Assembly: GCA_944324155.1 (NCBI GenBank)
Contig: CALUVF010000051.1
Coordinates: 1-32,224 of the forward strand
Direction of reading: 5' to 3'
DNA length: 32,224 nt
Origin: an uncultured Erysipelotrichaceae bacterium
GTDB lineage: Bacteria > Bacillota_I > Bacilli_A > Erysipelotrichales > Erysipelotrichaceae
Shown here: one piece after another, positions 5,637 to 32,224 of the stretch
How the letters are laid out: the number at the start of each line of letters is the position of its first letter
Position numbering within the stretch: position 1 is the stretch's first letter
Notes under the pieces: model-generated
Seen by the model: the letters and a program-made list of their open reading frames with translations, nothing else
What the model was told of the DNA's origin: nothing
The model's database searches: none
Position numbers and translations under genes: made by a program

Positions 5637-5663
5637 AAAAAGACGCTTGATGCGTCTTTTTTT
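5637..5663 (+). terminator. Rho-independent terminator after gap
   Basis: AAAAAGACGC (5637-5646), loop TTGAT, GCGTCTTTTT (5652-5661) with a continuing T run. The T run is followed at once by the -35 box of the next gene. Confidence 0.92.
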
Positions 5664-5690
5664 AACATTTGAGGCGAAATTTTATATAAT
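5662..5690 (+). promoter_or_regulatory. Promoter of the XRE-RCC1 gene, leaderless type
   Basis: TTAACA (5662-5667), 17 bases, perfect TATAAT (5685-5690). The ATG at 5700 starts 9 bases later, so the expected untranslated leader is about 0-3 bases. The -35 box overlaps the end of the gap terminator. Confidence 0.7.
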
Positions 5691-5699
5691 AATAGGCGT

Positions 5700-7460
5700 A
5701 TGAACACTTTACCAACGAAATTATTAGCACTGCGCAAGCAGTACGGTTACTCGCAAAGCTATGTAGCAGAGTATTTAAAAATGGAAGTTATTGAGTACAT
5801 GGGCTATGAAAATGGCCGCAGCGTACCATCTTTTGCGAACCTTAAAAAATTGGCCAAATTATATAAGGTCAAGGTCGATGATCTGTTTGTCAATGAAAGG
5901 CGTATCAATTACTGGCAAGAGGAAGAAAAGAATAACGATACCCAAAACATCACCTACTTAGAGAAGCAGACCAAAAAGACCAAACGCAAGGCTTATTTAA
6001 AGACAAACCAAAAGGTCTTGATCGGGATCTGTGTCTCGCTTGCCCTCATTGCGATCATCGCAGTAGTGATCTGGCGCTTTGTTGCATCGAATAATGAGAT
6101 CTATGCCAAAAGGATCGAAAGTAATGCCAATCGCTTAGATGCCTCTAATACAAGCGTTGTCTATATCAACGCAATGGGCGGTGTAAATGGCTTAGGTGAT
6201 AACCTCAACGGGCAGTTAGACCTAAATTTCAGTGATGTCTTCAAGGTCCAAGAGGGCTCTAACTTTACGGTCGCACTTAAAAACGACGGTACATTAGAGG
6301 CAGCCGGATTAGATTCATCTTTGATGAAAGAATTAGAAAAGCTTGAAGGGATCGTCGATATAGCTGCTGGCAATTCTGAGATCATGGCTTTAGATGAGCA
6401 CGGCAAGATCCATTGTATCGGAACTGATGACTACTGTGATTTTAAGAGCGATAAGCGCTATACCCGGGTCTTTGCGACCTATGATGCCTATTTTGCCCTT
6501 GATACTGACGGGGTACTGTATTACGATGGAGAATTTGCCGGAGCCTCGCGCTTAGATGGTGTCAAAGATGTCAAAGATGTCGCAGCCAATCAGAATATGC
6601 TGGCTTACGTCACAAGTGATGGCCGGGTCTTTGCCCAAAGTACAAGCGGGACGTTAGGCGATGTCTCATCTTGGAACAACATCGTCGAGATCGCGATCGG
6701 CCTTAACTATATCGCTGGTTTAGACGCTAATGGCCAGGTGTATTTCGCCTCGCTTGAAGAAGATGCCTATAATTTCCACGCCGAGACCTTCAGCAAGGTC
6801 GAAACGATCGATGGTGGGGAAGATTACTTTGTTGCCTATGATGGTATGAAGGTCATCGGGATCGGCAATGATGAATATAAACAGTTTGAAAATGTCGAGA
6901 TTGAGCTAAAGACCCTTGACAGCGTCGAGAATATCAGCGTCGAGGTAAATGCCGAAAAGATGGTCCTTGAGATCAGCTTTGACGAGGTCGCCAACGCACA
7001 AAGCTACGAGATGACCTTTAATGAAGAGACTTATACTTCGACGACCAATCTCTTTGAGGTCAGCTATGCCAATTTACAAGATGGCTATGACTATAAGATC
7101 GACATCATCGCTAAAGGTGATGCAAAAGAGTACAACGATTCTTTATCGACCACCTTTATCTATACTTTTGAATATCCGATCCTAGAAGATAAGATCATCT
7201 TATCAGGAATGGTTGGCATGGACAGGGAGAATCTTGAGCGCTATTTGACAGAAAACGGTGCCACTAGCGCTAATATCAGCGCTGAAGCCGATAGTGGTTG
7301 TGATCCCGCCACTCAAAAAGAAGGTCAGGTTACAGCTGTCAGCGGATTAAATGATGGTGAAGAGATCACCCGCAAGGATCTCGCTGAAAGAAAGATCACT
7401 TATAAGTATTGTGTATTCGAAGATGCAGGAGAAGACAATAATGAAGATATGGCAGATTAA
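5700..7460 (+). CDS. Membrane-anchored XRE-type regulator with extracellular RCC1-like propeller
   Basis: A 586-residue protein of mixed build. Residues 6-63 are an XRE/Cro helix-turn-helix (LLALRKQYGYSQSYVAEYL, then YENGRSVPSFANLKKLAKLY). A basic stretch (91-105) precedes one membrane helix (about 106-126), which puts the HTH in the cytoplasm and the rest outside. Residues 150-395 hold about six RCC1-like blades (GLGDNLNGQL, NFTVALKNDGTLEAAG, NMLAYVTSDGRVFA). Residues about 410-490 look like an Fn3 fold and 498-575 like a PASTA unit with two cysteines (534, 571). The build suggests a one-component regulator that senses something in the envelope, which is an inference. Its ligand and DNA targets are unknown. 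The 3' end overlaps a 59-codon gene. Confidence 0.82.
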   Translation: MNTLPTKLLALRKQYGYSQSYVAEYLKMEVIEYMGYENGRSVPSFANLKKLAKLYKVKVDDLFVNERRINYWQEEEKNNDTQNITYLEKQTKKTKRKAYLKTNQKVLIGICVSLALIAIIAVVIWRFVASNNEIYAKRIESNANRLDASNTSVVYINAMGGVNGLGDNLNGQLDLNFSDVFKVQEGSNFTVALKNDGTLEAAGLDSSLMKELEKLEGIVDIAAGNSEIMALDEHGKIHCIGTDDYCDFKSDKRYTRVFATYDAYFALDTDGVLYYDGEFAGASRLDGVKDVKDVAANQNMLAYVTSDGRVFAQSTSGTLGDVSSWNNIVEIAIGLNYIAGLDANGQVYFASLEEDAYNFHAETFSKVETIDGGEDYFVAYDGMKVIGIGNDEYKQFENVEIELKTLDSVENISVEVNAEKMVLEISFDEVANAQSYEMTFNEETYTSTTNLFEVSYANLQDGYDYKIDIIAKGDAKEYNDSLSTTFIYTFEYPILEDKIILSGMVGMDRENLERYLTENGATSANISAEADSGCDPATQKEGQVTAVSGLNDGEEITRKDLAERKITYKYCVFEDAGEDNNEDMAD

Positions 7461-7620
7461 GAATCGTCCCAAGACTTTAATACTCAGTGATGAAGAATTG
7501 ATTATAGCGATCAAAAAAGGTTTGCTTAAGGGTGAAGATGTCTTGATTAGTACGGAACTTGAAGAAGAAGTTGCGATCAAAGACACGGTCTATGAGATCT
7601 ATCTGAGAAAGCAAGATTAA
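7441..7620 (+). CDS. 59-aa conserved-looking small protein, overlapping the XRE-RCC1 gene
   Basis: The ATG at 7441 is chosen because AGGAG (7427-7431) lies 9 bases before it; a longer frame from 7351 has no site. It overlaps the end of the preceding gene by 20 bases, so the two are probably co-translated. The product begins MKIWQIKNRPKTLILSDEEL, continues with IAIKKGLLKGEDVL and ends DTVYEIYLRKQD. This pattern (Trp near the start, a DEEL helix, a G-L/V-L turn, then a beta strand) resembles the small GYF_2-like domains sometimes attached to membrane regulators. That resemblance is weak. No membrane segment is seen. It may be a cytoplasmic partner of the regulator. Confidence 0.6.
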   Translation: MKIWQIKNRPKTLILSDEELIIAIKKGLLKGEDVLISTELEEEVAIKDTVYEIYLRKQD

Positions 7621-7638: not shown

Positions 7639-8967
7639 ATGCGTATCTATAACAGCAAGAGCCTGAAGGTTGAAGAATTTAAACCGATCAAAGAGGGCGA
7701 AGTATCGATGTACGTGTGCGGACCGACCGTCTATAGCGACATGCATATCGGAAATGCCCGTCCCATGGTCGTCTTTGACACTTTGAAGCGCGTTTTTGAG
7801 GCCTTAGGCTATAAAGTGAAATATGTTTCTAATTACACCGATGTCGATGACAAGATCATTAATGAGGCCTCTAAAAAAAATATCAGCGAACTTGAACTCA
7901 CCAACGAGATGATCGAAAGGGTCAAAACGATTCGCGAGCTATTAAATGCCAGCGATCTTTATAAGACCCCGCGGGTAACTGAAACCATGGAAGATATCGA
8001 GGCCTTTATTGAGGAACTCGTCATGAATGGCTATGCATATCAGGTCGGCGGCGATGTCTATTTCAGGACCGCCAGCATTAAAGACTATGGTCTTTTAGCT
8101 AATCAGAAGATCGAAGACTTTAAGGTCGGGGCGAGGATCGAAGAAAACACCAATAAGGAGTCACCGCTTGATTTTACGCTTTGGAAGAAAACGGAAACCG
8201 GGATCCGTTGGCCCTTTAAGTATTCTTTGGGAAGACCGGGCTGGCATACTGAGTGTGTCGTCATGATCAAAAAAGAGTTGGGCGATGTGATCGATATTCA
8301 TGGTGGTGGCAAGGACTTGCGCTTTCCACACCACGAAAATGAAAGAGCACAAGCCCGAGCCTTATATGGTACGGACCTGGCCAATTACTGGGTGCATAAC
8401 GGCATGATCGATATCGAAGGCGTCAAGATGTCAAAATCTTTAGGCAACTTTATCACGGCTCAAAAGGCTATCGAGGCCTATGGCGCCATGACGATCCGCT
8501 GGCTTCTTTTGTCCAACCACTACCGCGATGACATCAATATTTCATCTGCTACCTTGGAGGCTGCTCAAAAAGAATTAGACCGCTCTTTAAGCGCCATTAA
8601 GCAAGCCTCTTTAAAGCTTTCTTTAAATTCATACGAAGGAAAAGAGCGTGAAAAGAAAAGTTATGACGCGTTTATAAATGCCATGGAAGACGACTTAAAT
8701 ACTCCCAATGCCTTTAGCGTCGTCTTTGAAGTGACCAAAAGGATCAACACGCAAGTCCGTCAAAAAGAAGGCGACCTGAATGCCTTAAGCAGGGATCTTG
8801 AAAGCCTCAAGGCTATGCTAGATATCCTTGGCATACGCTATCATGAGGTGCATTTAGATAAAGAGGATCGCGATCTTTATGATGCTTGGCAAAAAGCGAA
8901 AGAAGCCAAGGACTTTTCAAAGGCTGATGAGTATCGTCAGGTCTTAAAGGAAAGAGATCTGCTTTGA
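7639..8967 (+). CDS. cysS: Cysteinyl-tRNA synthetase
   Basis: A 442-residue class I aminoacyl-tRNA synthetase that charges tRNA-Cys. The zinc/active-site Cys27 and HIGN motif (36-39, in CGPTVYSDMHIGNA) are present, as are GWHTEC and HGGGKDLRFPHHENE (zinc and adenylate pocket) and KMSKSLGNF. The protein is slightly shorter than the usual 460-470 because the C-terminal end is trimmed. The ribosome site is weak (AAGAGAG upstream of 7639). Its stop overlaps the start of mrnC, the same order as in Bacillus (cysS-mrnC-rlmB), so these three form an operon. Confidence 0.98.
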   Translation: MRIYNSKSLKVEEFKPIKEGEVSMYVCGPTVYSDMHIGNARPMVVFDTLKRVFEALGYKVKYVSNYTDVDDKIINEASKKNISELELTNEMIERVKTIRELLNASDLYKTPRVTETMEDIEAFIEELVMNGYAYQVGGDVYFRTASIKDYGLLANQKIEDFKVGARIEENTNKESPLDFTLWKKTETGIRWPFKYSLGRPGWHTECVVMIKKELGDVIDIHGGGKDLRFPHHENERAQARALYGTDLANYWVHNGMIDIEGVKMSKSLGNFITAQKAIEAYGAMTIRWLLLSNHYRDDINISSATLEAAQKELDRSLSAIKQASLKLSLNSYEGKEREKKSYDAFINAMEDDLNTPNAFSVVFEVTKRINTQVRQKEGDLNALSRDLESLKAMLDILGIRYHEVHLDKEDRDLYDAWQKAKEAKDFSKADEYRQVLKERDLL

Positions 8968-11694: not shown

Positions 11695-11800
11695 GCGTTA
11701 TAGTCTCCCCTTGGAGTCTTTAACCGCTCAAAAAAGGTCTTAAAAGCCCTTCGGGCTTACCTTATTGGCGCGTCTTTAAACTTTAAAAAGGAGGTGCAAC
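11695..11800 (+). ncRNA. Structured 5' leader of rplU (L21 leader candidate)
   Basis: About 104 untranslated bases precede rplU. A long imperfect helix spans 11695-11727 with CTCC-CCTT-GGAG at its tip. A second hairpin has outer arms AAGGT/ACCTT and inner arms AAGCCC/GGGCTT around a TTC loop (11734-11763). Position and two-stem layout fit the L21 leader found before rplU in Bacillota, an autoregulatory RNA. The strong AAGGAGGTG ribosome site closes it. The family assignment is by position and shape, not by covariance search. Confidence 0.6.
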
Positions 11801-18323: not shown

Positions 18324-18397
18324 TGGAGCAGGTGATGAGAATCGAACTCACGTAGTCAGCTTGGAAGGCTGAAGTTCTACCATTGAACTACACCTGC
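18324..18397 (-). tRNA. tRNA-Gly (anticodon TCC)
   Basis: Minus strand. Acceptor arms GCAGGTG/CACCTGC, anticodon loop CTTCCAA, T loop GTTCGATTC and encoded CCA. 74 bases. Last gene of the six-tRNA cluster. Confidence 0.96.
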
Positions 18398-18412
18398 AAG
18401 TTAAATAATGAG

Positions 18413-18488
18413 TGGTGTCCCGGAAAGGAATCGAACCTTCGACCCTCTGATTAAAAGTCAGATGCTCTACCGCCTGAGCTACCGGGAC
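18413..18488 (-). tRNA. tRNA-Lys (anticodon TTT)
   Basis: Minus strand. Acceptor GTCCCGG/CCGGGAC, anticodon loop CTTTTAA, CCA encoded, 76 bases. 15 bases separate it from tRNA-Gly. Confidence 0.96.
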
Positions 18489-18492
18489 AGCA

Positions 18493-18568
18493 TGGCTGGG
18501 ATGGCTGGGTTCGAACCAGCGAAATGACGGAGTCAAAGTCCGTTGCCTTACCACTTGGCTACATCCCA
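18493..18568 (-). tRNA. tRNA-Gln (anticodon TTG)
   Basis: Minus strand. Acceptor TGGGATG/CATCCCA, anticodon stem-loop CGGACTTTGACTCCG, CCA encoded, 76 bases. The U1-A72 start of the acceptor is typical of bacterial tRNA-Gln. Confidence 0.95.
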
Positions 18569-18573
18569 AAAAG

Positions 18574-18658
18574 TGGTGGAGAGGGGCAGATTCGAACTGC
18601 CGAACCCGTAGGGAGCTGATTTACAGTCAGCCGCGTTTAGCCACTTCGCTACCTCTCC
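18574..18658 (-). tRNA. tRNA-Tyr (anticodon GTA)
   Basis: Minus strand. Acceptor GGAGAGG/CCTCTCC, anticodon loop CTGTAAA, long variable arm as expected for a class II tRNA, CCA encoded, 85 bases. Confidence 0.96.
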
Positions 18659-18666
18659 AAAAAGAA

Positions 18667-18742
18667 TGGTGCCGACTATAGGACTTGAACCCACAACCTA
18701 CTGATTACAAATCAGTTGCTCTACCAATTGAGCTAAGTCGGC
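18667..18742 (-). tRNA. tRNA-Thr (anticodon TGT)
   Basis: Minus strand. Acceptor GCCGACT/AGTCGGC, anticodon loop TTTGTAA, CCA encoded, 76 bases. Only three bases separate it from tRNA-Val. Confidence 0.96.
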
Positions 18743-18745
18743 ACA

Positions 18746-18821
18746 TGGTGGAGGTTAACGGGCTCGAACCGCTGACCCTCTGCTTGTAAGGCAGATGCTC
18801 TCCCAACTGAGCTAAACCTCC
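18746..18821 (-). tRNA. tRNA-Val (anticodon TAC)
   Basis: Minus strand. Acceptor GGAGGTT/AACCTCC, anticodon loop CTTACAA, CCA encoded, 76 bases. First gene of the cluster after the promoter. Confidence 0.96.

Positions 18822-31810: not shown

Positions 31811-32224
<414 letters not shown>

Follow-up and report, generated by a model that had tools for sequence, protein, structure and literature searches.

Single-pass membrane proteins that bind DNA constitute a known and widespread class of regulators. In these transmembrane transcription regulators (TTRs) of the ToxR/CadC type, as presented in the main text of PMC10269533, a helix-turn-helix (HTH) of the DNA-binding type inside the cell, one transmembrane helix and an outside sensor are joined in one chain. 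In the fast-evolving co-component systems VtrA/VtrC and ToxR/ToxS, the gene for the membrane-bound HTH regulator overlaps that of a small partner, a periplasmic co-sensor that is lipocalin-like in the case of VtrC (PMC9214523). RodZ likewise starts with an XRE-fold HTH, followed by a basic juxtamembrane linker, a single transmembrane helix and a beta-rich outside part; its XRE-type HTH binds MreB, not DNA (PMC6946637). Finally, the GYF fold, a peptide-binding adaptor in eukaryotes, also occurs in the bacterial cytosol, where proteins such as Bdellovibrio Bd0075 (PF14237) have been suggested to act as peptide-binding adaptors (PMC12034629).

A 32,224-nt stretch of DNA (the window) from a 1.31-Mb Erysipelotrichaceae genome carries a transmembrane receptor module of two genes that is conserved and apparently undescribed, a variant of the transmembrane transcription regulators. 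The first gene (5700..7460, + strand) encodes a 586-residue membrane protein in which the open reading frame (ORF), Pfam matches, hydropathy, an AF2 model and structural matches together delineate an XRE-type HTH, a linker, a transmembrane helix, an RCC1-type propeller, an Fn3-like domain and a PASTA-like end. The HTH spans residues 1-66 (5700..5897, +) and matches HTH_3, HTH_19 and HTH_31; both HTH_3 (E 3e-9) and RCC1_2 (3.5e-8) pass the Pfam cut-off. The single transmembrane helix at residues about 106-127 (6015..6080, +) has a mean hydropathy of 3.05 for the 20-residue segment at 106 and follows a Lys-rich stretch; by the positive-inside pattern, the HTH and linker are predicted to lie on this Lys-rich, inner side, with the propeller outside.

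In the AF2 model, built from three sequences, residues 147-403 (6138..6908, +) adopt a seven-bladed beta-propeller of the RCC1/BLIP-II type, with three-stranded blades over residues 154-397; an Fn3-like region and a C-terminal alpha/beta region follow. The model's HTH and linker region, with a pLDDT of about 45, was left unused. Structural superposition of the modelled propeller on BLIP-II (1jtd_B) gives a Z score of 19.7 (rmsd 3.7, 238 residues), and the RCC1, UVR8 and HERC2 propellers score 16-19. These same families occupy the top Foldseek ranks, and the sequence itself matches RCC1_2 and WD40_RLD, so that Pfam, model and structural matches all place it among proteins whose RCC1 repeats build a seven-bladed propeller. 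The initial annotation, made from the letters of the DNA, had read a propeller outside, a single membrane helix and an HTH in one polypeptide, and had named the failure to predict a propeller in residues 150-395 as a refutation; the domain reading is borne out, and the model shows the propeller.

The remainder of the ectodomain is less uniform. The Fn3-like domain (residues about 404-490; 6909..7169, +) is visible as beta strands in the model, and homologues from three loci (L067, L070, L074) pass the Pfam fn3 cut-off; the proposed Fn3-like fold is supported in this way, although the window protein itself does not pass that cut-off. The C-terminal domain (residues about 497-572; 7188..7415, +), with two family-conserved cysteines, carries a weaker label than the other domain calls. 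A Pfam search of the window protein gave no PF03793 (PASTA) match above threshold, while the family's C-terminal profile aligns in register with the PASTA domains of its own genome at a marginal hhalign P of 1.7e-4 (0.56 for an Fn3 control). The PASTA-like end originally proposed is therefore retained as a resemblance and not as a family assignment. It is present in 35 of the 51 aligned homologues; the remaining ones end in a Pro-rich tail or carry a List_Bact repeat or additional Fn3 domains. The peptidoglycan sensing envisaged from it is consequently not supported as a family-wide function, or beyond the window's clade.

An ectodomain that is so large and so variable between genera, with a PASTA-like match in the window's clade, could itself, as propeller, Fn3 and C-terminal tail together, be the working part of a protein for adhesion or envelope structure whose HTH serves only for autoregulation or as an anchor. 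This is improbable, given that a cytosolic GYF partner is retained, that no sortase signal was noted at the C terminus and that the HTH is better conserved than the ectodomain: in every tabulated homologue, identity to the window protein is higher over the HTH than over the propeller, the pattern that a conserved output inside the cell and a diverging sensor outside it would produce.

The second gene (7441..7620, +) overlaps the first by 20 nt, is preceded by a Shine-Dalgarno sequence (AGGAG, 7427-7431) and encodes a soluble protein of 59 residues. Comparison with L005, the nearest relative, yields a pN of 0.145 against a pS of 0.875; the ORF is under purifying selection and is a genuine gene. 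Overlaps are usual among homologues (4-59 nt, for example 4, 8, 14, 20 or 29 nt), which corroborates the coupling first seen in the window. The partner is no longer anonymous. In 15 of 22 members of the small-protein family GYF_2 (PF14237) is matched, homologues from L070, L081, L084 and L098 reaching 37.6-42.5 bits against a cut-off of 25.8. The window copy has no GYF_2 match of its own in Pfam and carries TLIL in place of the GP[YF] ligand-pocket motif, and its classification as a diverged member comes from its homologues in that family. To the GYF domain the family adds D-S-I-Y-x-F-Y-L, a segment conserved at the C terminus. The protein contains no hydrophobic segment, transmembrane helix or signal peptide and is presumably cytosolic. 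A search of PDB sequences with the GYF profile returned chance-level matches only (best calmodulin, E 0.016); the AF2 model, again from three sequences, has a pLDDT of 57, too poor for a fold search, and its beta-beta-helix-beta start would fit a GYF domain without being proof of one.

By the family profile, 29 of the 35 regions, the window counted among them, have the GYF ORF immediately after the large gene. It is missing from six (L076-L078, L082, L083 and L085), of which L082 and L083 encode proteins with a classical recognition helix. Genera with long linkers carry I-x-I-P-F in the linker and mostly keep GP[YF] in the GYF copy, whereas the window's clade carries N-x-x-Y-[FL] in the linker and a GYF copy without GP[YF]; L081 and L067 fit incompletely. 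Such a pairing is consistent with a contact between linker and GYF protein, although it follows phylogeny and so is no test of that contact. The long cytosolic linkers (L066, L067-L075, L084, L099) also contain repeated T-R-V/I-I/M motifs that resemble phosphothreonine sites. A phosphothreonine/FHA link as the general partner was rejected: FHA occurs in five of 30 genomes and does not track the motif.

An XRE protein with a small overlapping ORF is also the typical layout of a toxin-antitoxin or defence pair, and weak PADLOC matches, confined to the HTH, point to defence-linked regulators. This origin of the pair is nonetheless highly improbable. The partner belongs to the GYF_2 family and lacks any toxin-like domain, the pair often occupies the same housekeeping locus between gapA and cysS, and no match was found among 72,556 plasmids or 50,697 phages; neither the toxin-type partner nor the mobile distribution of a type II system is seen. 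The plasmid and phage searches likewise led us to reject a mobile element.

Of the 273 Erysipelotrichaceae genomes searched with a single sequence, 136 encode the large protein, spread over 15 of 60 genera, and the pair is kept in about half of the sampled genomes of this gut-associated family. Beyond the family, profile searches of the remaining 43 genomes of the order and of samples of the class and the phylum added no full-length, fused homologue; matches outside Erysipelotrichaceae are of partial coverage, mainly to RCC1. The search for homologues with the same domain order and the same downstream small ORF thus succeeded in many genera. Separate genes for HTH and propeller, which would have spoken against the proposed architecture, did not occur: both are fused in all homologues read intact, and in the one assembly in which they lie in different frames (G076), the split looks like a frameshift.

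Whether the XRE head addresses DNA or protein is the point on which the interpretation turns. Among 50 homologues R12 (50), Q19 (49), E37 (50), N38 (50) and G39 (49) are near-invariant; these residues secure the XRE fold or orient it on DNA, and the fold is well kept. The recognition helix (MEVIEYMGYENG in the window protein) is acidic and strongly conserved, in contrast to ordinary XRE proteins encoded by these genomes. Over its nine-residue face the mean net charge is -1.6 in the 50 homologues, none above 0, whereas 25 other XRE domains taken from those genomes average +1.3 without a single value below 0 (Mann-Whitney p 1.6e-12, a guide only, since the homologues are not independent and relatedness is uncorrected). 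An invariant Tyr33 with conserved Glu/Asp32 and Met34 replaces the R/Q-rich reading face. Moreover, a comparison of the sequences upstream of the large gene revealed no shared inverted repeat or palindromic operator beyond terminator-like hairpins and the -10 box, and an autoregulatory palindrome was rejected. The signs on promoter binding thus conflict, the fold and turn residues being kept while the helix is acidic and no operator was found; as the helix is acidic, DNA binding by residues 1-70 should not be assumed.

These properties of the recognition helix, together with the missing operator, suggest a scaffold in the manner of RodZ, whose HTH sets the precedent (PMC6946637). The XRE fold would dock a cytosolic protein and no longer read DNA, the GYF adaptor, of a peptide-binding fold in eukaryotes (PMC12034629), would join a second partner, and the protein, its propeller bound to an envelope structure, would link that structure with a machine in the cytosol. 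We regard this as a substantial possibility with the balance somewhat against it. N38-G39 and Q19 persist where a domain no longer tied to DNA would be free to lose them; summed over the whole HTH, the charge resembles that of other XRE domains and is not lower (+0.5 versus -0.3 in the controls); the protein has no match to HTH_25, the RodZ family; and sister proteins carry a classical DNA-reading helix. The latter form a second XRE-TM-RCC1 architecture, with the recognition helix SRQTISKWE and no GYF partner (L082:4643-5857, +; L083:1-1496, -). Their shared domain order indicates that XRE-TM-RCC1 regulators of the ordinary type exist alongside the acidic ones.

Upstream, the pair is set off from gapA by a terminator-like hairpin and T run, a perfect inverted repeat AAAAGACGC-TTGAT-GCGTCTTTT (5638..5663, +). 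The upstream terminator of the initial annotation is thus recovered by sequence, although the hairpin (5638-5660) is absent from the output of the terminator scan. Most relatives within the genus (the other g1 genomes) have hairpins of different sequence at the same place, at about -50 to -90. The separate promoter proposed for the pair is supported as well: the promoter scan reports TTAACA-17-TATAAT (5662..5690, +; 11 of 12 matches), the -10 box ending 9 nt before the ATG, and as about five promoter-like sites are expected by chance in the region, its support comes from the conserved position in relatives. A -10 box whose end lies 6-9 nt ahead of the start codon is shared by 28 of the 30 homologues in the window's clade, one of which (L019) has a Shine-Dalgarno-like sequence as well; among first-ATG ORFs of the same loci, a control that includes the large gene, the pattern occurs in 17 of 114. 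The large ORF of the window has no Shine-Dalgarno sequence, and transcription is expected to start on the ATG itself or a few bases from it; homologues in other genera mostly have a Shine-Dalgarno sequence instead. The proximity of the -10 box to the start codon and the lack of a Shine-Dalgarno sequence therefore predict a leaderless or near-leaderless mRNA, a prediction that appears conserved and specific to the clade.

Downstream, cysS (7639..8967, +) begins 18 nt after the small ORF and is followed by mrnC, rlmB and a sigma factor gene. Many genomes have the pair between gapA and this cysS-mrnC-rlmB-sigma factor series, and in many relatives it overlaps or abuts the following gene. The pair was first considered a stand-alone module; the 18-nt gap and the overlaps in relatives led us to abandon this, and cysS is likely to belong to the same transcription unit, the pair probably forming the head of the cysS operon. 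T-box control of cysS was rejected, as neither a T-box nor another leader was found ahead of this gene in the window. The other genomes of the genus encode, between the GYF ORF and cysS, a membrane protein of about 235 residues that has the invariant motifs H-T-x-S-G and W-E-x-Y-E and lacks a clear match in Pfam or NCBIfam (L086:5956-6669, -; also L066, L078 and L087-L092); the whole genome of the window is without it. Elsewhere the window holds a gene for a 979-residue surface protein (18-2957, +) that has YDG and Big_2 domains and, at its C terminus, a weak LPXTG-type match, an L21 leader RNA directly before rplU (11712-11785, +), a cluster of six tRNA genes (18327-18821, -) and the start of a 16S rRNA gene at 31812, at the window edge.

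The reading we favour, with confidence just short of even, is that the pair constitutes a transmembrane receptor whose propeller serves outside as sensor or anchor, whose XRE head acts inside as a membrane-tethered regulator and which is tuned by the GYF protein. The large protein would sit in the membrane with its N terminus inside, and the propeller, held outside by the Fn3 domain and in the window's clade also by the PASTA-like tail, would bind an envelope or extracellular ligand. The single helix and the linker next to the membrane would transmit the ligand state to the cytosolic XRE head, and this head would work as a transcription regulator of the ToxR/CadC kind. The GYF_2-type protein, whose translation would overlap that of the large protein on a common mRNA, may bind on the cytosolic side, most simply to the conserved linker motif, and set or read the state of the XRE head. 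This receptor-regulator reading is favoured by a fused architecture kept across many genera, by the propeller fold in the model and its structural matches, by the predicted inner position of HTH and linker, by the conserved XRE residues, by the classical-helix proteins of L082 and L083, by the frequent GYF ORF and by the better conservation of the HTH. Against it stand the acidic recognition helix, the missing palindromic operator, the loss of GP[YF] from the window copy and the six regions that lack the GYF gene. A more specific proposal, which we consider doubtful as a whole, is a lineage-specific receptor class without described counterpart, in which the XRE fold would have become a protein-docking head with an acidic, conserved E/D-Y-M face, connected by a dedicated GYF_2 adaptor to the RCC1 propeller outside; this bacterial membrane adaptor system would be encoded on a leaderless mRNA at the head of the cysS operon. 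The classical- and acidic-helix versions stand side by side in the family, making such a re-use of the XRE fold directly testable.

How does the pair compare with described systems? BLIP-II is a secreted protein that binds beta-lactamases; the window propeller shares its short RCC1-type repeats and seven blades at about 20% identity, and is tethered to an HTH. Like the TTRs, the large protein has an HTH of a DNA-binding family (here HTH_3) and a transmembrane helix in one chain; it departs from them in the acidic helix of its XRE domain, its RCC1/BLIP-II ectodomain, its cytosolic GYF_2 partner and its predicted leaderless start, and a text search of the main text of PMC10269533 brought up no XRE, HTH_3, RCC1 or propeller. 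The overlap of a membrane regulator gene with a small partner gene, as in the co-component systems, is present here (20 nt) and in most homologues, and fast evolution is a further common trait; in place of a membrane-tethered periplasmic partner (PMC9214523), however, there is a soluble GYF_2-type protein of 59 residues without a hydrophobic segment. Compared with RodZ and its HTH_25 domain, the window protein has HTH_3/HTH_19, a propeller outside and a GYF partner, and PF13413 matches only a different ORF of the genome, below the cut-off. A search of the open literature gave no paper in which RCC1 is connected to an XRE membrane protein or to a GYF partner. Unlike Bd0075-type proteins, the GYF family described here is free-standing, about 60 residues long, extended by D-S-I-Y-x-F-Y-L and encoded with one receptor; the role of this domain in bacteria is little known. 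A propeller best known from RCC1, UVR8 and BLIP-II is thus paired with a cytosolic HTH in one receptor that comes with its own GYF-type adaptor, and the pair looks like an undescribed way of passing an outside signal into the cell.
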